64,000 bases of DNA from Thermococcus sibiricus MM 739 (GTDB lineage Archaea; Methanobacteriota_B; Thermococci; Thermococcales; Thermococcaceae). Below the pieces are notes generated by a model that was not told where the DNA came from, ran no database searches, and saw nothing but the letters and a program-made list of their open reading frames with translations. The stretch covers positions 922,276 through 986,275 of the forward strand of contig NC_012883.1 in the NCBI RefSeq assembly GCF_000022545.1, read 5' to 3'. Shown in pieces: positions 3,139 through 59,681 of the stretch. Position numbers and translations under genes: made by a program. How positions within the stretch are numbered: position 1 is the first letter of the stretch; every line of letters starts with the position of its first letter.

Positions 3139-4601
3139 TAGGTTCTTGCAAATCTTGCTACATACTTTGCATCTTTTCCACAGTTAGCACATTTCTTTCC
3201 TTCGATTTTTGCCGTTTCTTCAGGGTATGGAATCCCCAACATACTGGCATCAAGTATTTCTTCCATTTCTACACCACAGCCTTTTTCACCACACCATGGT
3301 AATTCCACTACACCTCTTCTGTCTTCAAAGAGCTTTTTAGCTTCCTCCAATGTGTCTACTCTCTTTATGTGAGTCTCTAAGAATTCCCTTGCCCTATCGT
3401 AGAGATTCTCTATGATTGCATCAAGGGTCTTCCTGGCCTCTTCAACGAGGTTCTCTCTCTTCACTGTGAACTTTTCAAACGTGTCTCTTCTAGCAAATAC
3501 TGCTTGGTTTTCCTCGACATCTTTTGGACCGACTTCGATTCTCAGTGGCACTCCTTTGATTTCCCAATCATAGAACTTTCTTCCGGGCCTTACATCCTCT
3601 CTATCATCCACATGAATTCTCAGGCCCGCAGTTTTGAGCTCTTCTGCTATTTCTTTAGCATATGCATTTACATCGTAGGGTGACTCTTTCATTGGAATTG
3701 GAATTACCACTACCTGCACAGGAGCTATGGTTGGAGGCAATACAAGACCGCTGTCGTCTCCATGAACTCCCATAATGGCAGCCACAAGTCTCTCACTCAT
3801 ACCAAATGTTGTTTGATGTACATACTCATGTGTCCCTTCCTCTGTCTCATATGTAATCTCATAGGCCTTAGCAAAATTCTGTTTGTAGTGGTGCATAGTA
3901 CCAATTTGCAGGGTTCTCCCATCTGGCATTATAACTTCAGCCCCAAGTGAATAAAACGCACCAGGGAACTTATCCCAGTCAGGCCGCTTTGAAACTATAT
4001 ATGGCAGCGCGAGGTTCTTGGCAAGATTATCAAATATTTCTAGATCTTCTCTTATTTGTCTCTCAGCGTCCTCAAAGCTATCATGTGCAGTGTGAGATTC
4101 GAAGAACCTACTTATTTCCCTAACTCTGATTAAAGGCCTAGTGTGTTTTGTTTCATAACGATACACATTAACTATCTGGTATATTTTAAATGGCAGATCC
4201 GCATGAGACCTAATCCATAAATTAAACATGGGGTACATGGCGGTTTCGCTTGTGGGTCTTAGAATTAGTTTTACATCAAGGGGTCTTTCACCAGCATGTG
4301 TGACCCATAAAACTTCTCCATGAAAACCCGCTATATGTTCAGCTTCCCTTTCAAATTCACTTTCAGGGATTAGTGCTGGGAACAAGACTTCATTGTGCCC
4401 AGTTCTCACCATTTCCATATGGATTAAGTTTTCTATGTTCCTCATGATCCTAAGGCCATAAGGTAGCCATACGTTCATTCCCTTCACTGGATATCTCTTA
4501 TCTTGAATCTCTGCAAGTTCTATCATTTCGTTGTACCATTCACTAAACTCGTTCATCCATCTTTCTCGTTTTACCTCTGTTACTTTGTTAACATTTTCCA
4601 T
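3135..4601 (-). CDS. proS: Prolyl-tRNA synthetase, archaeal/eukaryal type
   Basis: Class II synthetase that charges tRNA-Pro. The 488 residues are full length for the archaeal form, which lacks the bacterial editing insert. Visible features are motif 2 ([19 protein letters not shown]), the motif 3 region ([16 protein letters not shown]), an anticodon-binding domain from about residue 290, and a C-terminal zinc-binding domain with Cys pairs in WCGEKGCG and CANCGKD. The protein ends in the ARFARTY tail typical of this form. The ATG at 4601 follows GGTGAT with a TTT spacer. It is divergent from the hydroxyacid dehydrogenase gene. Confidence 0.97.
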
Positions 4602-4709
4602 AAAATCACCACCTATCCATTAAAAACCCCCAATATTTTTTAATCTTTCGCAAATAAAATTAGGAAGATTTATTAACATGTTTCGATAAGGATTTTAAAG
4701 GTGAAGTCT

Positions 4710-5711
4710 ATGAAGCCAAAAGTGTTAGTATTGTTTAACATGAAAAGTAATGCCATGAAACTCCTAAAAGAATATTGTGATGTTGATGTTATGGTCTATC
4801 CGACCAAGGAAGAAGTGCTGCAAGTAATAGGAGCATATGATGGGTTAATAGTCTCTCCACTAAATCTTGTAGATAAGGAAATCATAGAACATGGCAAAAA
4901 ACTTAAAGTGATAAGCACCCAGTCAGCAGGCTACGATCATATAGATATTAATGCAGCTACTGAAAAGGGTATATACGTTACCAAAGTTAGCGGGATTCTA
5001 AGCGAAGCAGTTGCGGAGTTTGCTGTTGGATTAACAATAGCACTTCTAAGAAAAATAGCTTATTCAGATAGATTTATCAGAAAGGGTCTCTGGGATTCCC
5101 ACAAAACCATATGGGGATGGTACAAAGAAATGGAAACCTTACATGGCAAAAAAATTGGAATCTTAGGAATGGGATCCATTGGAAAGGGGATAGCAAGAAG
5201 AATGAAAGCAATGAACACAGAAATCTATTACTGGAGCAGGACCAGAAAAGAAGACATTGAGAAAGAAGTAAACGCCAAATGGCTTCCGATTAATGATGTA
5301 TTAAAAGAAAGCGATATAGTGATATTGGCACTCCCATCCACTCCTGAAACTTATCACATAATTAATGAGGAAACGCTTGAACTTTTAAAAGGGAAATATC
5401 TGGTGAACGTGGGTAGAGGTAGCCTCGTAGATGAGAAAGTCCTCATAAAGGCATTAAAAGAAGGGAATCTTAAAGGATTCGCTACAGACGTTTTTGAAAA
5501 AGAGCCCATTCAAGAAAGTGAACTTTTCGAGATGGAGTGGGAAACAGTATTAACTCCCCATCATGCTGGGCTAGCACAAGAAGCTATGGAAGACATGGCA
5601 CTCCAGGCGGTTAATAATTTGCTTGAAATCTTAATGGGGAATGTTTCCGAGAACCTCGTAAACAGGGATGTGTTAAAAGTAAGACCAATAGAAGATATTA
5701 AGATGTTCTAA
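4710..5711 (+). CDS. D-2-hydroxyacid dehydrogenase (glyoxylate/hydroxypyruvate reductase-like)
   Basis: NAD(P)-dependent reductase of 2-oxo acids, 333 residues. The cofactor site is GILGMGSIGKGIARR. Catalytic Arg (NVGRGSLVDE), Glu (FEKEP) and His (TPHHAGLAQE) are all in place. Substrate cannot be told; relatives include glyoxylate reductases and formate or lactate dehydrogenase-like enzymes. GGTGA at 4700-4704 places the start at ATG 4710 rather than GTG 4701. A TATA-like ATTTATTAA lies around 4668-4676. Its 3' end converges on serA, with a palindromic AT-rich gap between them. Confidence 0.88.
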   Translation: MKPKVLVLFNMKSNAMKLLKEYCDVDVMVYPTKEEVLQVIGAYDGLIVSPLNLVDKEIIEHGKKLKVISTQSAGYDHIDINAATEKGIYVTKVSGILSEAVAEFAVGLTIALLRKIAYSDRFIRKGLWDSHKTIWGWYKEMETLHGKKIGILGMGSIGKGIARRMKAMNTEIYYWSRTRKEDIEKEVNAKWLPINDVLKESDIVILALPSTPETYHIINEETLELLKGKYLVNVGRGSLVDEKVLIKALKEGNLKGFATDVFEKEPIQESELFEMEWETVLTPHHAGLAQEAMEDMALQAVNNLLEILMGNVSENLVNRDVLKVRPIEDIKMF

Positions 5712-8265: not shown

Positions 8266-8360
8266 ATTATCACCTCAAAAAGATGGGAGTTGCTTAGGAC
8301 ATAGAGAGAAAGTGCAAAAACTACAAGGTAAATTAACATTTCAAATTTTTTTCTCTCCAT
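8262..8360 (-). CDS. Small membrane protein upstream of panE
   Basis: A 32-residue ORF, MERKKFEMLI followed by a hydrophobic stretch (LVVFALSLYVL) and a short tail. GGTGG lies 4 bases before the ATG at 8360 and the stop overlaps the panE start as ATGA. This is good translational evidence for so short a frame. One transmembrane helix is likely; function is unknown. It was not recognised as any named family. Confidence 0.55.
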   Translation of the reverse strand: MERKKFEMLIYLVVFALSLYVLSNSHLFEVII

Positions 8361-8409
8361 CTTTCCACCGTAATCATTTTAATACTTAATCCTTAAATAT
8401 CTTGTAGTT

Positions 8410-9150
8410 ATGAAGCTAAAGGTGATACTTGTAGAACCAGAATACCCAATAAATTTGGGGGCCATTGCAAGGGTCATGAAAAACTTTGGGGTTACCGATC
8501 TCATTCTTGTTAATCCAAAAGTTAGCCCAAACAATAAAATAGCTAGGACGTTTGCAGTTCATGCTGTGGACATTTTAGAAAATGCCAAAATACATGAGAG
8601 CCTTGAAGAAGCATTAAATACGGTGGATTTAGCTATCGGGACAAGTGGACTTGCTGGAGGTGATTACATCCCAGAAAGAGCCCCCATATCTCCTGAAGAG
8701 TTTGCTAAGCGTCTTTCTATATATGACGGTGAGATAGGGTTAGTCTTTGGAAGAGAAAGTAGGGGATTAGACAATGAAGAGCTTAAAAAGCTAGATTTCA
8801 CAGTCACCATTCCTACAAGTGAGGAATACCCAATAATGAATTTAAGTCACGCAGTTGCCGTGATACTTTACGAAGTGTTCAAACAAAAATTAAAGAATAA
8901 CCCAACGGAAGTTAAGCGAAGATTGAGAAAATCAACAAGGCAAGAAAGAGAAATGTTGGTGGAGTTTTGGGCAAAGTTCCTTGACACTCTTGAATATCCA
9001 AAGGATTTGGAGAAAAGAAGATTTTATGTTCTAATGTTCAAGCGTTTTTTGGGCAGAGGCTTTATATATGCAAAGGAAGTTCATTCTTTATATGGGCCTT
9101 TGAGAAGGGCCATTAAGCTTCTTGAGAGGTGTAAAAATGATATCAATTAA
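8410..9150 (+). CDS. trmJ: tRNA (cytidine/uridine-32-2'-O)-methyltransferase, SPOUT family
   Basis: S-adenosylmethionine-dependent 2'-O-methylation of nucleotide 32 in tRNA, inferred from similarity to TrmJ. The 246 residues contain the SPOUT knot motifs: EPEYPINLGAIARVMKNFG (motif 1), GLVFGRESRGLDNEEL (motif 2) and IPTSEEYPIMNLSHAVAVI (motif 3). A C-terminal extension with basic residues probably aids tRNA binding. No GGTGA precedes the ATG; AT-rich TATA-like sequence at about 8376-8399 suggests a leaderless or near-leaderless message. It heads a run with ogt and the TPR gene, each overlapping the next. Confidence 0.88.
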   Translation: MKLKVILVEPEYPINLGAIARVMKNFGVTDLILVNPKVSPNNKIARTFAVHAVDILENAKIHESLEEALNTVDLAIGTSGLAGGDYIPERAPISPEEFAKRLSIYDGEIGLVFGRESRGLDNEELKKLDFTVTIPTSEEYPIMNLSHAVAVILYEVFKQKLKNNPTEVKRRLRKSTRQEREMLVEFWAKFLDTLEYPKDLEKRRFYVLMFKRFLGRGFIYAKEVHSLYGPLRRAIKLLERCKNDIN

Positions 9151-9664
9151 ATCCTTCCAAATAGGGGAGAAGGAGATAGTAATAGCCATATTATTTGACA
9201 AAAAAATACAGGGTATAACTTTCTCTTTTGATGGAGAACAGTTCCTCCAAGAAAGAGTAAACGCTCTTGTTGAGCACCTCACCAACAGAGGAGTCAAAGT
9301 TAACCTTGAAGAAAGAGATAGTGAATTACCAGCCTTAGTTTACAAGATTCTTATTGGAGAAATCAGGAATCAAGATGGCTTGGAATATCTCAGCTTTGAG
9401 GGGACTACTCCTTTTGAGAAGAAAGTTTACGAAACACTTACAAAAAAGGTTAAAAGAGGGGAAGTCATAACATATGGTGAGCTAGCTAAAATGCTTAGGA
9501 GCTCACCAAGAGCTATTGGTGGAGCCATGAAAAGGAACCCTTACCCAATAATAGTTCCCTGCCACCGAGTGATTGCTTCAAATAACATTGGAAATTATAC
9601 ACCAAAAAGAGAGTATAAAAGATTCTTACTTGAAACTGAGGGGGTGAAAACGTGGACAAGTTGA
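9137..9664 (+). CDS. ogt: Methylated-DNA-protein-cysteine methyltransferase
   Basis: Suicide repair protein that removes alkyl groups from O6 of guanine. The 175 residues carry the active site PCHRV near residue 147, the helix-turn-helix RAIGGAMKRNPYP with its Arg finger, and the GEVITYGELA segment. The start is ATG 9137 after GGTG; TTG 9122 upstream has no ribosome site. It overlaps trmJ by 14 bases and is overlapped by the TPR gene, suggesting one message. Length fits thermococcal Ogt. Confidence 0.95.
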   Translation: MISIKSFQIGEKEIVIAILFDKKIQGITFSFDGEQFLQERVNALVEHLTNRGVKVNLEERDSELPALVYKILIGEIRNQDGLEYLSFEGTTPFEKKVYETLTKKVKRGEVITYGELAKMLRSSPRAIGGAMKRNPYPIIVPCHRVIASNNIGNYTPKREYKRFLLETEGVKTWTS

Positions 9665-46177: not shown

Positions 46178-47320
46178 TCACCCCATACATTCTTCAAGGC
46201 TCTCCAAGCTGCACTCCATAACTTTGACCGCTTTCATTTGGCTATGGGTTTTCAGTCCGGAACCTGTTAGAATGCTCACAACCTTTGTGTCCTCTTCTAT
46301 TCTCCCTCTAAGCTTTTTTATTGCAGCTATTCCCGTTGCAGACGCCGGCTGGACAAAGATACCTTCTCTTCCAAGGTCTTGTTGAGCCTCTAAAATCTCC
46401 TCGTCGCTAACGGCAACGCAGAGCCCTTTGAGTTCATTCAAAAGTCTTAAAACTGCGTTCCCGCTTGGAGGGTAGGGGTTCTCTATGGCGTGGGCTATGG
46501 TATGGGGATTCTCAAATCGCTCAATTTTTTGCCTGCTTTCATTAAAGGCTTTGCATATTGGAGAGCACCCCTCAGCTTGAACGGCAACAAAAGTTGGGAG
46601 GTCTTCTATTAGCCCACTCTCTTTGAGCTCCAAAAATCCCTTCACAATGCCTCTAAAAAGTCCGCCCGAGCTTGTGGGGATTACGACGTAATCGGGCGTT
46701 ACCTCCTCAGCAATTTCAAAGCCTATGCTCTTGTATCCCTCAACCCTGAACGGGTCGTCAGAGTTTATGAAATATATGCCCTTTCTTTGCCCAATTTCAA
46801 GGCTTCTGTAGTAGAGCCCCCCATAATCCCCCCGAACTTTAATGACCTTTGCCCCATAAACCTCTAGAGCTTTGAGTTTTTCCTCTACTATAGTTGATGA
46901 GACTAGGATGTATGTTTCAAGTCCAAAGCGCGCCCCATAAGCAGCAACACTGGCGGCCATGTTGCCTGTTGAGACCGTTCCAATTTTATTAAAGCCAAGC
47001 TCCAAAGCTCTGTGAATACCTATAAACGTTCCTCTATCTTTAAAGCTCCATGTTGGGTTGAGAGTTTCATTTTTAAGGTAAAGTTCAACTCCAAGCTCTT
47101 TTGAAAGACGCTTCGCTTTCGTGAGGGGAGTATCACCTTCACCGAGGCTATACTCCAAATCGAGCTCAAAGGGGTAAAATTGCGAAAACCTCTCCCAAAC
47201 CCTCTTTCCTATGCCTGGAACACTCTTGAAAAGCTCCAGCTCTAAAGGTTCACCACATTCGCACCTCTGGTAGGGTTTTCTCAAGGAATACTCCCTTCCG
47301 CATGAAGTGCACTTCAGCAT
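46178..47320 (-). CDS. thrC: Threonine synthase
   Basis: PLP enzyme converting O-phosphohomoserine to threonine. The 380 residues open with a zinc ribbon (CTSCGREYSLRKPYQRCECG), common in archaeal ThrC. PLP Lys is in TWSFKDRGT, the phosphate loop in STGNMAASVAAYG, and the closing SILTGSGLK is typical. The alternative, another fold-II PLP lyase, is less likely given the N-terminal extension and EGDTPLTKA. It begins 3 bases after the agmatinase stop. Confidence 0.93.
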   Translation of the reverse strand: MLKCTSCGREYSLRKPYQRCECGEPLELELFKSVPGIGKRVWERFSQFYPFELDLEYSLGEGDTPLTKAKRLSKELGVELYLKNETLNPTWSFKDRGTFIGIHRALELGFNKIGTVSTGNMAASVAAYGARFGLETYILVSSTIVEEKLKALEVYGAKVIKVRGDYGGLYYRSLEIGQRKGIYFINSDDPFRVEGYKSIGFEIAEEVTPDYVVIPTSSGGLFRGIVKGFLELKESGLIEDLPTFVAVQAEGCSPICKAFNESRQKIERFENPHTIAHAIENPYPPSGNAVLRLLNELKGLCVAVSDEEILEAQQDLGREGIFVQPASATGIAAIKKLRGRIEEDTKVVSILTGSGLKTHSQMKAVKVMECSLESLEECMG

Positions 47321-48557: not shown

Positions 48558-49858
48558 TTAACTCAACCACGCTTCTATGCCCTCTTCTTCATAACTAGGG
48601 CTCAAAGCTAAGAGGGTGAATCCCAAACTTAAAAATGCCATTGCAGCACCAGGCGAGATAATCCACCACCATTTGCTTCCATATAATGCACCTTGCTCCA
48701 TTGCCTCAATCATGAATGAACCCCAATTAGTCCCAGGGATCATTCCAAAAAACCCAAAGAGAGAAATCAAGGCAACAATTCTGGGCATTAAAAATGTGAA
48801 ATGCCTCAATGCGTGTTCTAGAATAACTGGCCCTATGTGCCTTCTTAGAATATAAACTCCACTTGCCCCTAGAGACACCTCAGCCATTATATACTCCTTG
48901 GCTTTCTCTTTTATTGTGATCATTCTTATCGTTTTAGCGAATTTTCCCATTAAAAGAAATGCCAGAATTAACATAAATTTCAGAGGAGGTACGCTAACTT
49001 TTCCCCCATTCCTTGAGTTGATATTACCCATGTTACAACAATTAGAATAGGAAGCACGGGGAGTGCAGTGAGGACTTCAAGCAGAAATGTAACAAATTTG
49101 GAAATCCCATTGTCAAAATATCCTGAAACAGAACCTATCAAAAACCCTAAAACAACAATAATTACGGAAGTAACCAAAGCAAGATAAAGTGTATTTCTCA
49201 TGCTTTTAACAAAACCAACCCATATGTCCCTTCCGTAATTGTCAGTTCCCAGGAAACCATAAGCTTCTCCCTGAACAATGACTTGAGGAGGTTTACCACA
49301 GTTGCACAGCACTTCTATTTTGTAAACTCCTTCTAATGTTGCAAAACTGACATCTTTTGCGAATAAAATCTTCATAGGAGTCAAAATAGCCTTATCTTCC
49401 TCTTTAAGATTTAGATGTTCCCTCATAGCTGAAAATATTTGCATACTCATTTTAGGCTCAGTATTTAAATTAACACTCTCTTTAAGTTCATCATCATAGA
49501 TTCTTATTTTAATGCCATCTGGGCGTGTAATTTCGATTATATAATACCCCTGATCAATTCTATCGAACACTATATTATTCGGGGGCCTAGAATATTGATG
49601 GAGGTAAACATAAGTAAAAAGGTAATATTCCTCCCCAACTTTACTCACTTCTGAAGGGGAAAGTACAGTGGTGGGCACTTGTTCACGAAAAATAGAGAAC
49701 CATATCGGGTTTGCTTTTTTGGGATATTTGTCCCAATATAATGGATTTTCCCAATTGTTGATTTCTGTTTTGGATACGCTTAGCTCACTGAACAATACAA
49801 AAGCAATGAAAAGAATTAAAATGACAATTCCACCTTTCTGGTGTCTTTTTAACTTCAT
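48558..49858 (-). pseudogene. DppC-type permease gene, frameshifted
   Basis: Frame one (49858-48980) encodes the N-terminal helix, a 150-residue extracytoplasmic insert, the GFLGTDNYGRDIWVGFVKS motif and three helices, ending at VVTWVISTQGMGEK. Frame two (to 48558) continues with VSVPPLKFMLILAFLLMGKF, the EAA-like loop and the C-terminal helices. A one-base loss in the T4C5 run at 48999-49007 (A4G5 on the coding strand) explains the break; restored, the protein would be about 433 residues. The large insert after helix one is unusual for DppC. The sister permease upstream is also broken and no ATPase or receptor gene is near. Confidence 0.72.
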
Positions 49859-50890
49859 TTAGGTCACCCTCGGATCAAGTGTTCCCTTTATCAGTTCAAT
49901 GACCAAAGAAATACCAAAAAACAATGTGGCTATAATTATTGTAAGCGGAAAAAACAGATATGGTCTGAAGTTAACCACGACCCCCACGTTTGGGATGACC
50001 TCTCTAACGAAACTGTTTTTCAATAACAAGCCCAAACCTTGAAGTGAGAAAAAAGCATCCAATACCAGATAATCCGTAAGCATCTCCCCAAACTTCTGAG
50101 CAGTAAAAGAACTCAGGGTTATCCCAATATTTTTGAGTATATGTTTCCAATAGATGACCGTATTTGGAACTCCTTTAGCAATTTCAGTGATTATATAAAC
50201 CTCTCCAAATTCTTTTTGAGTTTCCCTAGCTACTATCGCTATAAACTCCCAAACAAAAACAGAAACTATTGTAGCTATCGGCAGAATTAAATGCTTTAAT
50301 ATATCGAGGGCTAAACCAAAACCATCTTCAGGTGGCATGCTCATCAACCCACTTGCAGGAAAGATATTGTATTTGATAGCAAAGAGGAACACAAAAAGAA
50401 CAGCAATCCACCAAGAAGGGATTCCATTGAAAAACCTAGCAAGGCTCTCTATGAAGTTTAAAAAAGAGGATTTTGTTGCTATTTTCATTCCAACCGTAAT
50501 ACTTATACAAAGTATCAGAAGAAGAGAGGCCAGCAACACTCCCAGAGTGATTAAAATTGCCCTTCCCAGCTGAACATTTTTCGCCATTTTCAGCTCATCC
50601 CAACTTTATTTAAGAAGTTGGATTCCTCGGATGAAAACGTTTGTATTAAGTCCTTTTGCTTCTACTAGCTTTTCATAGTAGTATTGAACAACAGTTTTAT
50701 TTTCTTTTGTGGCGTTTTCTCTTAAGAGTTCATAAAATGCAGGATTTCTAAGTTGTAGAGTAATCAAATCTTGCTCAGCTTCCATTTTGGCTAATTTTCC
50801 AGTAGCTAATCCTGCTGTGGTGGTTATTATAATCAATACACAGACAAAAATAGCAAACAATCTAGCAACAGTCTTGTAAGGGAATTTCAT
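49859..50890 (-). pseudogene. DppB-type permease gene with in-frame stop
   Basis: The start (50890, MKFPYKTVARLFAIFVCVLI) and the rest of the permease (GRAILITLGVLLASLLLILC through GTLDPRVT) lie in the same frame, split only by a TAA at 50606-50608. Without it the protein would be about 343 residues, normal for DppB, and the junction FIRGIQLLK..SWDELKMAKN reads through smoothly. ATG 50587 after the stop lacks a ribosome site. The stop triplet is TAA, so pyrrolysine readthrough does not apply. It is therefore probably a real inactivating mutation. Confidence 0.7.
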
Positions 50891-52854: not shown

Positions 52855-53039
52855 GTTTGATACTTCCCACCCACGAGGGATGATTATATGTGCAAAACCC
52901 TAGCTTATAAACTGTATAATGGCATTACATAAATCAATACCAAGAACTAAAAAATTTAGGTACCATTAACAAAGTTAAGGGCTAATAACAAACTCACCTG
53001 GGAGAAAGATTTATATACCCGTAACATAGTTTAGAATAG

Positions 53040-53073: not shown

Positions 53074-53133
53074 TTAAAAAGTTAAAGGTCAGATATCACT
53101 TTAATGAAAAATTAAAGATATTTGGTGTCAGAG

Positions 53134-54072
53134 ATGGAAGATGAAAAAAGCTCCGATGATGATGGTGGCCCACCCCTGATAAGGGCTCAAAAGCTCGAAG
53201 AGTACTTGGGCATATCCAAAATATACATTAAACTCGAAAGCTTTAATCCGACAGGCACTCACAAGGACAGAATAGCAAGAGTTCACGTTGAGGAGGTTAA
53301 TAAGCTCGGGTTTTCTGCGATAACTACGGGAACATGTGGAAATTACGGCATTTCTATAGCATACTTTGCACAGAAATACGGATTAAAAGCTCATATATTT
53401 ATTCCCAGAGCTTACAGCAATATTAGACTTAAGGAACTAGAAAAATATGGAGCTGAGGTTGTTTTTATCAACGGAAGCTATGAGGAGGCGGTTTTCGAAA
53501 GTAAAAAGTTTGCAAAAGAAAACAACATATACGACGCAAATCCTGGGAGCAAACCATGGATAGACTACGAAGGATATGCAGCAATTTCCAGAGAAATAGC
53601 AAAGAATGTAACGCCTTATGCGGTTTTTGTACCCGTTGGAAACGGAACTACCCTCGTGGGAATATACCATGGCTTCAGGCAGCTTGGGTTTACCCCCCAC
53701 ATGATTGGCGTAACAACAAGCTTCGGAAATCAAGTTTTGAACGCGTTTTACACAAAGAGCTTTGACGAAGTTAAAGATTTCGCAGAGACAAAGTTCAATG
53801 AACCCCTTGTTTCATCAATCTCTTTTGACTTCGATAATGCTCTGGAGGCAATTTATGACTCTGATGGCTACGTTTTTGGTTTTGCTGATGACGTCTCTTT
53901 CAAATACGCTTATCTACTTGAAAGATTCGAAGGGATAAAAGCTTTCCCTGCCTCAGCTTTGGTTTTAGCAGGATTGGTAAAGTTCGTGAAAAAGTTTGGA
54001 GTTAATGGAAGAAATTTCGTGCTTATCCTTACTGGAGGGTTAAAAGATGGAAAAAGCCCTAATCTTGGCTGA
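53134..54072 (+). CDS. Threonine-synthase-like PLP enzyme, first gene of unknown pathway operon
   Basis: A 312-residue fold-type II PLP enzyme. The Schiff-base Lys is in NPTGTHKDRIA (K44), the phosphate loop in TTGTCGNYGIS, and the closing loop in ILTGGLKDGKSP. It differs from the housekeeping ThrC at 46178: it lacks the zinc ribbon, the lysine motif is THKDR rather than SFKDRG, and the N-terminus is acidic. It probably does a beta- or gamma-replacement or elimination on an amino acid; product unknown. Start ATG 53134 follows GGTG. The next gene starts 26 bases inside its end. Confidence 0.85.
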   Translation: MEDEKSSDDDGGPPLIRAQKLEEYLGISKIYIKLESFNPTGTHKDRIARVHVEEVNKLGFSAITTGTCGNYGISIAYFAQKYGLKAHIFIPRAYSNIRLKELEKYGAEVVFINGSYEEAVFESKKFAKENNIYDANPGSKPWIDYEGYAAISREIAKNVTPYAVFVPVGNGTTLVGIYHGFRQLGFTPHMIGVTTSFGNQVLNAFYTKSFDEVKDFAETKFNEPLVSSISFDFDNALEAIYDSDGYVFGFADDVSFKYAYLLERFEGIKAFPASALVLAGLVKFVKKFGVNGRNFVLILTGGLKDGKSPNLG

Positions 54073-55138
54073 AGGAAGATACAACACAAGTGATGGAAAA
54101 ACCGCTCACGGTTTGGTTAGATACTCTCAAAGATACCAAATAGTTGGAGTTGTAGACTCAACTCTAGCGGGGAGAGATGCTGGAGAAGTCTTAGATGGAG
54201 TCTATAGAGGCATCCCGATATATGGAAGTTTTGAGGAGGCCATTACGGAGAATCCCGATGTAAAATACCTGATAATAGGTGTTGCTACTCCCGGCGGATA
54301 TCTTCCATCGGTTTATCGTGAGATAGTGAAGAAAGCGATAAAAAGGGGATTGAACATCGTAAGTGGCCTTCATTACTTCCTGAGTAGTGAATCCGAATTT
54401 GCACGCCTTGCAAAGAGATACAAGGTACAGCTGATTGATGTTAGGAAGATTTTCAGGGAGCTTAAAATACCATTCAGCGGAAAAATCGAAGAAGTTAATG
54501 CGATAAAAGTAGCCGTTTTGGGAACCGATGGTGCAATAGGAAAAAGAACAACAGCTATAATGCTCCACGAAGCTTTCAATAGGTTTGGGAAGAAAAGTAT
54601 CTTCATTGCTATGGGGCAAACAGGATGGATGCAGGGATTTAAGTATGCAATAGTTATGGACTCTATCGTCAACGACTTTGTAGCTGGAGCAATAGAAGAC
54701 GTCATCTGGAGAGCCTGGAAGGAGGAAAACCCGGATGTCATCGTTACCCACGGTGAAGGTTCGCTTTTACATCCTGCTTATCCCGGAGGATTTGAGCTGA
54801 TAGCCTCTGGAAGACCAGATTATATAGTCCTCCAGCATGCTCCTGCGAGAAAATACTTCGATGACTTTCCACAGTACGAGATCCCCCCTTTGGAAAAGTA
54901 CATCCAACTAATCGAACTCCTCTCAGGCAAAAAGCCAATAGCAATAACTATAAACTCCGAAAACCTCTCAAAAGAGGATGCCTTCAAGATCGCAAGAGAA
55001 ATCGAGAGCACTTACGGAATACTAACTAAAGTTCCTCTTTACGAGAGTATTGATGAGATAGTCAAGCTCATCCTAGAGGAAAGGATGAAGATAAAACAGA
55101 TGGAAGTGGAAGCAAGTGTCGAATCTCAAGTGCTTTGA
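54047..55138 (+). CDS. DUF1611 P-loop protein
   Basis: A 363-residue protein of the DUF1611 family. The N-terminal Rossmann-like domain (GVATPGGYLPSVYREIVKKA) precedes a P-loop domain with VAVLGTDGAIGKRTTAIML (about 156-173), then MGQTGWMQG, VTHGEGSLLHPAYPGGFELI and YIVLQHAPARKYFDDFP. Some bacterial members (DgcN) are reported to act as D-glutamate N-acetyltransferases; whether that applies here is unknown. ATG 54047 lies within the end of the PLP gene with GGAGGG before it, so translation is coupled. Confidence 0.88.
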   Translation: MEKALILAEGRYNTSDGKTAHGLVRYSQRYQIVGVVDSTLAGRDAGEVLDGVYRGIPIYGSFEEAITENPDVKYLIIGVATPGGYLPSVYREIVKKAIKRGLNIVSGLHYFLSSESEFARLAKRYKVQLIDVRKIFRELKIPFSGKIEEVNAIKVAVLGTDGAIGKRTTAIMLHEAFNRFGKKSIFIAMGQTGWMQGFKYAIVMDSIVNDFVAGAIEDVIWRAWKEENPDVIVTHGEGSLLHPAYPGGFELIASGRPDYIVLQHAPARKYFDDFPQYEIPPLEKYIQLIELLSGKKPIAITINSENLSKEDAFKIAREIESTYGILTKVPLYESIDEIVKLILEERMKIKQMEVEASVESQVL

Positions 55139-56573
55139 TTATATTATAATTGAAGATCCAAAAATAAGCTCAAAGAGAATCTCGAGTATTTACCGGCTGA
55201 GCCTGGACAATGAGGAAAAGGTATTCAAGTTAATTCACACCTACAAAGAGAGGATTCCAAAAAAGGAGAGTAAAACCTTCGCAAAGCTTATGAGCATTGT
55301 TCCAGCAATTAACTATGGCCTATTCACTCCCCTCATTTATTTTGACTTCCCAATCGACAAGAGAGATTTGAAATTCTTTAAAGACATGATGGAGATAACA
55401 GCTAAGGATATCTTCGTTAACAGGATAATTAAAAGAACAGGCTTCGTAAGGGAAGAGTTCATACCAAAGGAGGTTAAACCTGATTTAGCCAGACCCATAG
55501 CGAAAGTTAAAGCTAAAGAAGTCATAAAGGAAGACGTGAAATTTAATGCAGACTACAATAAGTGTGCCGTCATGCTCAGTGGCGGAAAGGAGAGTCTTTT
55601 AACCTACGGATTACTAAAAGAAATTGGTTGCGATGTTTATCCCTTCTTTTTCAACGAATCCGGTGGTCATTGGAAGGTTGCTTTGACTGCCTATAAATGG
55701 TTTGAGAAGAACGAGTCCAACACAAAAAAAGTTTGGAGTAACGTTGATAGACTTTATAACTTTATAGAATCCAATATGAAGATTTTACAGGATGTCAATA
55801 AACCTAAAGCAGAGGTTTATCCAATAAGACTGTTCTTCTTTGAGCATTACATTTTCTCCTTCCTACCGCTGATTTATAAATATAACATTGGAAATGTGCT
55901 ATTAGGAAATGAATACGATGACCCCAGAAACCTCAGCTATGAACAACAAGGGATTCCTCACTTCTACGCAGTTTTTGATCAAAGCCAATACTTTGACAAG
56001 TATATGAGTCAATGGTTTGCCAAGAGGAGTTTAAAAATAAGACAATGGTCAGCTGTTAGACCATTGAGTGGCTTAATTGTTGAGAGAATACTCCATAACC
56101 GCTATCCTGACCTCTTCATGCTTCAAAGAAGCTGCCATTCTGTTCATAAAGAAGGAAACGAATATGTTCCCTGTGGAACGTGCTTTAAGTGCAATGGCAT
56201 TCAAACGTTCCTCTTAGCTAACGGGATTGATCCCAAGCTCATAAAATATAAGGAAGAGCACATAAAAGGGCTTGCAAAGAGAATTAGGGACGGAAAAATA
56301 CGGCTTGATGAAGATGAACTCCTGCACTCCCTCTATTTAATCAAGATGCACAATCCAGAATTCGAGCTCAGCGGAGAGGAGAGAGAACACGTTGAGATGC
56401 TTCATTTTGACGACAGGAACTCACACTTCGATAACATCCCAGTGGAGTTTAGGGAAAAACTTTATTCTATATTTGAAGGCTACACAAAGGGGTATCTCTA
56501 CCTGAAGGACAATGAATGGAAAAGGATAACCCGGGAGGAGGCTTTGAATGGAGTTTTACGTAACCGACGGTGA
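55116..56573 (+). CDS. QueC-like PP-loop ATPase with unknown N-terminal domain
   Basis: A 485-residue protein. Residues 1-145 form a domain I do not recognise. The PP-loop AVMLSGGKESLLTYG (SGGKES at 155-160) marks an ATP pyrophosphatase that activates a carboxylate or similar group. Cysteines at 340, 353, 356 and 359 (PCGTCFKCNG) resemble the zinc site of QueC/ExsB. Residues 265-300 include LLGNEYDDPRNLSYEQQGIP. QueC forms amide then nitrile from a carboxylate and ammonia, so amide formation is a possibility only. Start GTG 55116 lies inside the DUF1611 end. Confidence 0.8.
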   Translation: MSNLKCFDYIIIEDPKISSKRISSIYRLSLDNEEKVFKLIHTYKERIPKKESKTFAKLMSIVPAINYGLFTPLIYFDFPIDKRDLKFFKDMMEITAKDIFVNRIIKRTGFVREEFIPKEVKPDLARPIAKVKAKEVIKEDVKFNADYNKCAVMLSGGKESLLTYGLLKEIGCDVYPFFFNESGGHWKVALTAYKWFEKNESNTKKVWSNVDRLYNFIESNMKILQDVNKPKAEVYPIRLFFFEHYIFSFLPLIYKYNIGNVLLGNEYDDPRNLSYEQQGIPHFYAVFDQSQYFDKYMSQWFAKRSLKIRQWSAVRPLSGLIVERILHNRYPDLFMLQRSCHSVHKEGNEYVPCGTCFKCNGIQTFLLANGIDPKLIKYKEEHIKGLAKRIRDGKIRLDEDELLHSLYLIKMHNPEFELSGEEREHVEMLHFDDRNSHFDNIPVEFREKLYSIFEGYTKGYLYLKDNEWKRITREEALNGVLRNRR

Positions 56574-56994
56574 GGACTACCTTGACGAAATAATAGCCTT
56601 CGATAAGTTGGTCAGCTATAATTTCCTCAAGTTTCCCATTCCATTCGACGAATATTCCGAGAGATACGAAAAGCTCATTAGAGAGCTCCTATCCAGAGGG
56701 GAGCACAAGTTTTTTGTCGCACTTGGCAAAAATGGCAAATTTCTAGGCCACGTATGGCTCTGCATGACATTAGACACCGTTGATTACGTGAAGATAGCCT
56801 ACATCTACGACATTGAGGTAAAGCAAAAAGGGGAAGGGATTGGTTCCGCACTCCTCAAGAGGGCAGAAGAGTTTGCAAAGGAAAAAGGCGCCAAAAAGGT
56901 AGTTCTAAGAGTTGATTTGAGCAATCCTGCTTTGGAATGGTATAAGAGGAAAGGCTACACAGAAAGAGCTGTGATCGTGGAGAAGGAGATATGA
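56548..56994 (+). CDS. GNAT acetyltransferase, last gene of the operon
   Basis: A 148-residue single-domain GNAT protein. IYDIEVKQKGEGIGSALLKR carries the acetyl-CoA pyrophosphate loop, and VVLRVDLSNPALEWYKRKGY is the usual C-terminal core. GGAGGAGGCTTTGA precedes ATG 56548, 26 bases inside the PP-loop gene, so it is coupled to it. Given the context, it may acetylate the pathway intermediate; this is inferred only from position. Confidence 0.88.
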   Translation: MEFYVTDGEDYLDEIIAFDKLVSYNFLKFPIPFDEYSERYEKLIRELLSRGEHKFFVALGKNGKFLGHVWLCMTLDTVDYVKIAYIYDIEVKQKGEGIGSALLKRAEEFAKEKGAKKVVLRVDLSNPALEWYKRKGYTERAVIVEKEI

Positions 56995-58322: not shown

Positions 58323-58495
58323 AAGCTCCGGAAAAGTTAAGATGCCTCAAAGAGAAAGATTGAATAGCTAAGAAGGTGACGTATTTAGGGTTAGGCTTCA
58401 TTCTTCAAGGCAGAGAAAAGAATGGAACATTTTCTATAGAATCCTATCCAAAGGTATTTGAATTTCGATTTACAAATTTCAAGAAGGTGCTTTTG

Positions 58496-59681
58496 ATGAA
58501 GTGGAGCGAGATTCCAAGAGAAGCTAAAGCCTACATGCTCTATCACACGCTAATCGCACCGGGCCTGATAGTCTGGATACTCTTTCCGCTTTATCTCATG
58601 ATGACGGGATATTCTGTCCTTCAGGTAGGAGCATTCTTCAAAGCCATCAATATTGCCTCAATCCCCCTCTACATATCTTTTCGGCAGATTTTTCAACCGC
58701 TGGGACATCAAGAAGGGGCTTATTGCGATAGACGTTTTGGATGGCATCGCTTACGTTTTGTATGGCCTTGCTAAGGGTGTAATAGCTCCACTAATGCTCT
58801 TCGCAGGAAGGGTTATTGAAAAGCTCTCAACCATGCTCTACCCCCTCTACCAAGCCTATGAGCAAGTGATCTATCCCGAAGATAAATACGAGGAAATCTT
58901 CGCTTGGCACCTCCGCTTACCTGAGATAGCAACTATAGTGAGCTTCCCTGTTATAGGCTATTTCCTCGACTACGTTTACAACAGACCGGAGCACTATCGT
59001 CTGGTTTTTCTCTTTTCCGGTCTCTTCTCGGTCGTGACAGTTGCTTACCTTGGGTTTTTCCTACCCTCTGTCGGCAGAGAGGAGCGTATTAGTCCGGAGG
59101 GCTTCACGTTTAAGGTGGGGGAGTTCAAGGTTCTCCTCACTTTCGAGGCTTTACTAACGCTAGCGTGGGGTCTGGCCCCAGAATTTATTCTCATTAACTA
59201 CGTCGTCTTCGTGCTCCACAAGACAGTCTTTGAAGTGACGCTGATAGCAGTTGCTAGTAGTTTAATGAGGATAATAGGTACCTACGCAAGCGAGAGAGTT
59301 CCCAAAAGAAAGGGCTTCTATGCTATAGCTTTTGGAATGTTTCTCAATGCCTTCTATACCTTAACGATGGCACTCGCTCCTCCATTCTGGCTCGCTCTAA
59401 CTGTTTATGCTATTGGAGACTTCGGCAACGCTCTTTGGTTTCCGTTCTACCGGTCTTGGATATTCAAGATAATCCCCAAGGAAAGGACGAGTGAGTTTCA
59501 TGCAGCTATATCAAGCTACAACAGACTTATTGGCCTCATCACCCCGTTTGTGGCTGGTGCTCTGGCAAGTATCCACGCAACGCTCCCATATGGGGCTAGT
59601 TTGGTGCTGTTTTTGATGGCAGGGGCGATGTTCTGGGTGTTGCCGAGGATGGGAAAGAAAACTCAGGCTTCCCCCATCTGA
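58496..59681 (+). pseudogene. MFS transporter gene with one-base frameshift
   Basis: The start (ATG 58496, site GGTG) encodes MKWSEIPREAKAYMLYHTLI and the first two helices, then shifts frame near PLYIS. The rest (FGRFFNRWDIKKGLIAIDVL onward to 59681) is one frame over. Removing one T from the TTTT run at 58678-58681 joins them as IPLYISFGRFFNRWDIKKG, the MFS loop after helix two, and gives 394 residues with about 12 helices. It could be a true break or a sequence error. It is a distant paralogue of the gene before it and overlaps the convergent ABC gene by 19 bases. Confidence 0.8.

Follow-up and report, generated by a model that had tools for sequence, protein, structure and literature searches.

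A coupled three-gene enzyme module shared by Thermococcaceae and Thermoplasmatota, with a probable role in a dedicated small-molecule pathway

Introduction

Fold-type-II pyridoxal 5'-phosphate (PLP)-dependent enzymes include racemases, lyases, replacement synthases and the threonine synthase ThrC. DUF1611 proteins include DgcN of the DgcN-DgcA system of D-glutamate catabolism, the reaction of which is reportedly the N-acetylation of D-glutamate. N-Acetylglutaminylglutamine amide (NAGGN), a bacterial compatible solute, is made by an AsnB-type PP-loop protein together with an ATP-grasp ligase. Members of the QueC family activate a carboxylate with ATP, after which ammonia or an amine attacks it, with the attacking group being ammonia for QueC, a protein N-terminus for Cap9, and probably likewise for QatC (PMC12424860). 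Here we describe a four-gene operon, the members of which are referred to as A, B, C, and D, in a 64,000-nucleotide stretch of the Thermococcus sibiricus MM 739 genome (positions 922,276 to 986,275 of NC_012883.1; this whole stretch is hereafter called the window). The genes encode a PLP enzyme annotated as threonine synthase, a DUF1611 protein, a predicted QueC-like PP-loop ATPase, and a GNAT acetyltransferase, respectively. A preliminary description of this DNA had proposed that they constitute an undescribed small-molecule pathway.

Results

Genes A, B, and C form a coupled module in two archaeal phyla

Genes A, B, and C constitute an evolutionarily coupled enzyme module that is present in Thermococcaceae and Thermoplasmatota and is under purifying selection. 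Sensitive searches covered the two corresponding archaeal phyla, and co-occurrence was near-perfect both in Thermococcaceae with their sister groups and in Thermoplasmatota. Gene C was detected in 30 of 94 Thermococcaceae genomes with a loose threshold, and in 27 of 115 genomes of Thermococcaceae and sister groups of the same phylum with E <= 1e-6. Among these 115 genomes, A scored above its curated cut-off in 20 genomes, each of which also carries C, and B was found in 25, of which 24 carry C. In the C-containing genomes without A, the operon either has decayed or is truncated at the end of a contig.

The operon is absent from most Thermococcaceae relatives, but in every undamaged locus with sufficient contig (approximately 17 further intact loci) the order A-B-C-D is kept on a single strand. 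In the window, the four open reading frames (ORFs) and their overlaps of 26 bases (A/B), 23 bases (B/C), and 26 bases (C/D) were as previously described, and short gene overlaps were seen again in the loci of relatives. The flanks of the operon vary, most clearly between the genus of the window and the other Thermococcus genus, indicating that movement or loss affects the operon as a whole. Decayed copies represent recent losses in Thermococcaceae: all four genes are fragmented in one genome (G029, locus L049), C is split in another (G027, L047), a fragment of C is all that remains in two more (G011, L050; and G010), and A carries an internal deletion in a fifth (G089, L026). Comparison of three related strain pairs gave ratios of nonsynonymous to synonymous substitution rates of 0.05 to 0.20 for A, B, C, and D, and the genes are therefore real and maintained.

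In Thermoplasmatota, an alignment-based scan yielded three Thermoplasmata contigs in which A, B, and C are adjacent and no GNAT gene accompanies them. Profile searches of 390 genomes detected C in 67 and A above cut-off in 68, with 63 of the latter also carrying C. The two genes are separated by no more than 5 kb in 58 of these 63 genomes, and A is located elsewhere in the genome in the remaining five. Retention of A even when it is unlinked to C speaks for a functional connection over simple conservation of gene order. Of 43 loci that were read fully, B accompanies C in all 43 and A does so in 39. The order A-B-C is the same as that in Thermococcaceae, at 31 to 54% identity, and, given that it is shared with a distant phylum, A-B-C is the core. 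The earlier view of a conserved four-gene unit thus holds in that the genes are kept together, whereas the core comprises three genes and extends to a second phylum, with the GNAT gene being accessory.

Pairwise distances of the three proteins were correlated, with Mantel coefficients of 0.80 to 0.87 compared with a null maximum of 0.15. The Thermococcus clade of C is nested within the Thermoplasmatota tree, next to loci L104 and L105, which suggests horizontal transfer between the two groups. Scans of genome contigs for C found nothing with a single sequence and only eight loci with an alignment, compared with at least 67 Thermoplasmatota members in the later profile search. Such pattern scans thus strongly under-report C, and absence of C elsewhere is not implied. 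Searches of plasmids and of viral contigs revealed no relatives of C in either.

Gene A differs from threonine synthase

Protein A matched PALP in Pfam (194 bits) and the NCBIfam family NF004996/PRK06381, named 'threonine synthase', with 443 bits against a cut-off of 266; the highest scores for this family belong to Thermoplasmatota members of the module. The closest solved relatives of A are ThrC enzymes, with which it shares the Schiff-base Lys (K44, invariant), the substrate-loop Asn, and the COOH-terminal TG; the phosphate loop NGTT, another fold-type-II feature, is also invariant. The overall signature of A is TG[TS][HQ]KDR / [TS]CGN[YF]G / GNGTT / NE[PA]L / TG.

A differs from ThrC, however, in its [TS]CGN[YF]G loop, which is the substrate-carboxylate loop and contains an invariant Cys, and in its GNGTT phosphate loop, as well as in the lack of counterparts of Asn154 and Arg160. 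The latter residue of Thermus thermophilus ThrC, in the NPxRxEG region, binds the substrate phosphate, and its counterpart is absent from all 22 aligned A proteins. It is present in the genome's own ThrC, which is encoded elsewhere in the window and retains DPFRVEGYKS. An invariant Asp in place of Arg160 was also considered for A but was rejected, because this residue varies in the larger set of sequences. Judged from its sequence, A is not the housekeeping ThrC, in agreement with the preliminary description. Genes of the NF004996/PRK06381 family accompany B and C, and their products are devoid of the substrate Arg of ThrC, so that the family is very probably misnamed.

Gene B is a distant relative of DgcN

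Protein B matched DUF1611 (PF07755) with 219 bits against a cut-off of 25 as well as DUF1611_N, placing it in the DUF1611/DgcN superfamily as had been proposed. Its score for the DgcN equivalog NF041892 was 158 bits, below the cut-off of 480, and annotation of B as a D-glutamate N-acetyltransferase was rejected on this basis. The AlphaFold2 model of B had a predicted local distance difference test (pLDDT) score of 94, and Foldseek retrieved 2obn, 7xrj (DgcN), and 2g0t, followed by cyclic diphosphoglycerate synthetase and the dethiobiotin synthetase BioD. Structure-based alignment with 2obn, 2g0t, and 7xrj gave identities of 25 to 32%, and B is a distant DgcN relative. The Walker A motif GTDxAxGKRT is intact and invariant, forming an ATP-type P-loop, and an EGxG-type motif is also present. 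Given this motif and the resemblance of the model to ATP-using enzymes outside DUF1611, B likely uses ATP.

Like DgcN, B has the two DUF1611 domains and the fold seen in 7xrj, whereas its partners are a PALP enzyme and a PP-loop ATPase. No DgcA-like racemase was noticed among the recurrent neighbors in the 43 Thermoplasmatota loci, with no profile search having been aimed at DgcA. One further locus (L158, genome G112) has a DUF1611 gene without C and an alanine-racemase-fold gene approximately 3 kb away (8272-9351 and 4152-5228).

Gene C is predicted to represent a new QueC/QatC-like family

Protein C matched no Pfam or NCBIfam family, and no solved sequence relative was found; PF06508 (QueC) gave no match at E values up to 1 in 17 members. 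The AlphaFold2 model (pLDDT of 91) nevertheless adopts a QueC-like fold, consistent with the earlier assignment. Foldseek returned QatC as the best fold match (E = 4e-6), over 470 columns that include the NH2-terminal domain, as well as QueC (E = 8e-5) and Cap9. Comparison with the organism's own QueC by hhalign yielded a weak, partial match confined to the COOH-terminal part.

All 28 aligned C proteins contain the PP-loop SGGK[ED][SA], mostly with Glu at the [ED] position, and four invariant Cys residues (C340, C353, C356, and C359) in the C...CxxCxxC pattern of a Zn site. This alignment contains no invariant Cys beyond these four, and such lack of an additional catalytic Cys argues against sulfur transfer. 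C thus shares the PP-loop, the Zn pattern, and the fold with QueC, QatC, and Cap9, and QatC also has an NH2-terminal extension. In contrast to these proteins, C escapes PF06508 and has an SGGK[ED]S loop, and neither deazaguanine genes nor Qat partners adjoin it. A 2026 survey of PF06508 describes the substrate motifs VPxRN and YPDC as marks of QueC (PMC13329287), and neither was seen by eye in the C alignment. Word searches of the same survey did not return Thermococcus, DUF1611, or threonine synthase (PMC13329287). On the basis of its predicted structure, C is a new QueC/QatC-like family outside Pfam.

The acetyltransferase is accessory

Protein D was confirmed as a GNAT acetyltransferase by its match to Acetyltransf_1 in Pfam (49.8 bits against a cut-off of 20.7) and has the acetyl-CoA motif QKGEGIG. 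A GNAT gene is the fourth member of the operon in Thermococcus. Two Thermoplasmatota genomes (G477 and G481) have A-B-GNAT operons in which C was not found and B and the GNAT gene overlap (L159 4077-6484 and L160 4232-6630, respectively), and in eight more loci (cluster 9) a convergent GNAT gene directly follows C. These other GNAT proteins are 20 to 27% identical to D, which makes separate recruitment likely. The GNAT component is accessory and was likely recruited more than once, and the convergent neighbors may be coincidental. In L159 (4077-7943), a gene for a CitMHS/DASS-type anion transporter is located just upstream of A-B-GNAT on the same strand.

Layout of the locus and its surroundings

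The features of the locus are listed in Table 1. A TTG at 53122 is in frame with gene A upstream of its ATG, and a Shine-Dalgarno-like GGAGG precedes B and D. A promoter scan based on a sigma-type model gave results at chance level and was uninformative.

Table 1. Positions in the window of the operon genes and of features mentioned for comparison
Feature	Position	Strand	Description
Gene A	53134-54072	+	Fold-type-II PLP enzyme, PRK06381 'threonine synthase' family; start ATG
Gene B	54047-55138	+	DUF1611_N + DUF1611_C (DgcN superfamily)
Gene C	55116-56573	+	Predicted QueC/QatC-like PP-loop ATPase with NH2-terminal domain; start GTG
Gene D	56548-56994	+	GNAT acetyltransferase, Thermococcales-specific operon member
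Housekeeping ThrC	46178-47320	-	For comparison only, outside the operon; keeps DPFRVEGYKS
Possible archaeal TATA-like box TTTATATACCCG	53010-53021	+	Approximately 115 bases 5' of gene A; weak, identified by eye

Major facilitator superfamily (MFS) transporter genes that follow the operon had been mentioned together with it. They do not belong to the module: among 26 relative loci, only the second of them was seen again, once and approximately 5 kb away. In the window, this second gene appears to be split over two frames (58376-58774 and 58653-59681). Both parts are matched in a single frame by relative L028 (15474-16643), and the window gene may therefore be frameshifted or contain a sequencing error. 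A gene for a peptide-type ATP-binding cassette (ABC) permease also appears to be broken, being represented by short ORFs at 49859-50587 and 50606-50890 on the minus strand, which are adjoined by a permease gene at 48980-49858.

Discussion

The conservation of the genes together in other genomes, and the fact that no known pathway fits them, bear out the proposal of an undescribed small-molecule pathway; no description of the gene set was found in a literature search of mainly non-subscription papers, in which DUF1611 occurred in two articles with titles on other subjects. We are confident that A, B, and C serve one dedicated pathway. The more specific reading that we favor, a horizontally mobile archaeal pathway dedicated to an amino-acid-derived small molecule and with the chemistry set out below, is tentative, with a probability of roughly 0.42.

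In this scheme, A, which has lost the phosphate-binding Arg of ThrC and has the invariant Cys in the substrate-carboxylate loop, would make or epimerize a nonprotein, possibly D-, amino acid. B would modify this amino acid by means of its intact P-loop, with acylation of the alpha-amine, as by DgcN with D-glutamate, being the favored possibility. C would adenylate a carboxylate of the product of A and B with ATP and couple ammonia or an amine to give an amide, for which QueC, Cap9, and presumably QatC provide precedent, with a substrate other than 7-carboxy-7-deazaguanine. In Thermococcus, D would acetylate an amine that is still free. These steps would be expected to yield a small blocked amino acid, both N-acylated and amidated. 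In chemical terms, the enzyme types are compatible with the earlier proposal of a modified amino acid that is perhaps acetylated and amidated, whereas the suggested function as a compatible solute or signal gained no support, and nothing in the analysis tied the module to osmotic stress. Synthesis of NAGGN in bacteria is similar in logic only, in that a PP-loop amidating enzyme and a GNAT protein yield an acetylated amide, whereas neither the AsnB-type PP-loop protein nor the ATP-grasp ligase family is represented in the present operon.

Several points weigh against this scheme. The co-occurrence statistics are inflated by species phylogeny, and both their p-values and the distance correlations are uncorrected for shared ancestry. 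Sequence alone does not select one reaction for A among those of fold-type-II PLP enzymes. It would be odd for a P-loop protein to act as an acetyl-CoA acetyltransferase, and the DgcN reaction that serves as the model for B is taken mainly from secondary mentions. The product is a deduction, with each reaction step being argued from the superfamily.

Another reading, which we consider unlikely, is a D-amino-acid pathway in which A would be a PLP racemase with a Lys/Cys two-base mechanism acting on Asp or Glu, B would N-acetylate the D-form, and C and D would make a D-amino-acid conjugate. DgcN, the characterized relative of B, reportedly acts on D-Glu, and A has its invariant Cys at the site where serine racemase has its second base, Ser84, although a Cys at this site is suggestive only. 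In 27 of 43 Thermoplasmatota loci (L057-L059 and L103-L142), a gene for D-aminoacyl-tRNA deacylase (PF04414) is found no more than a few genes from the module, usually just upstream of A. This gene is, however, a housekeeping one that a separate gap (approximately 165 bases where measured) sets apart from A, and it is not linked to the operon in Thermococcus. Furthermore, the unrelated neighbor Tsr3 is kept as often (29 of 43 loci), so that slow rearrangement explains the linkage and this deacylase (DTD2) is down-weighted as a functional partner. PLP-dependent aspartate racemase activity has been reported in Thermoplasma acidophilum (Long 2001, as cited in PMC6047364). In a bolder version, which we regard as less likely again, A would be a new PLP racemase with a Lys/Cys pair and perhaps the gene responsible for that activity, and B, C, and D would yield an acylated amide of a D-amino acid, which would explain some of the free D-amino acids of these archaea. 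To our knowledge, no gene has been assigned to the T. acidophilum activity.

Modification of protein or tRNA, possibly for defense, is improbable. C would then act in the manner of Cap9 or QatC, attaching to tRNA or to the N-terminus of a protein either a deazaguanine or an amino acid that A and B produce. The extent of the QatC fold match, NH2-terminal domain included, and the patchy distribution of the operon in Thermococcus, which resembles that of defense genes, would suit such a role. On the other hand, A and B are small-molecule enzymes, C shows no visible QueC substrate motifs, and the module is kept at stable positions in many Thermoplasmatota. PADLOC recognized none of the proteins A to D, and a defense function was rejected; no QatA, QatB, QatD, or CD-NTase genes recur as neighbors.

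We find very little to recommend a sulfur or low-molecular-weight thiol pathway, in which A would resemble a cysteine or homocysteine synthase, C would ligate or thiolate, and D would acetylate, by analogy with MshC and MshD. PALP enzymes do include cysteine synthases, a GNAT protein performs the last step of mycothiol synthesis, and both host groups contain sulfur users. C, however, has only the Cys residues of the Zn pattern as invariant ones, no glycosyltransferase or deacetylase partners recur, and such a pathway offers no role for B. Chance clustering of unrelated, overlapping housekeeping genes is scarcely credible, since, although compact archaeal genomes often have short overlaps, it is contradicted by the fact that in two phyla the genes are present or absent together, by the differing flanks within Thermococcaceae, and by the tracking of C by A even when the two are unlinked.

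The amino-acid-derived product that we favor would be formed in two groups of heat- and acid-loving archaea, and for such a metabolite the module offers genes that can be tested in culturable organisms, namely Thermococcus and probably Thermoplasma. A family that public annotation labels 'threonine synthase' very probably has another identity, DUF1611 gains a second context, and the QueC scaffold would, on the evidence of the predicted structure, extend to a family outside Pfam. If the D-amino-acid reading were true, the operon would also bear on why free D-amino acids occur in archaea without peptidoglycan.

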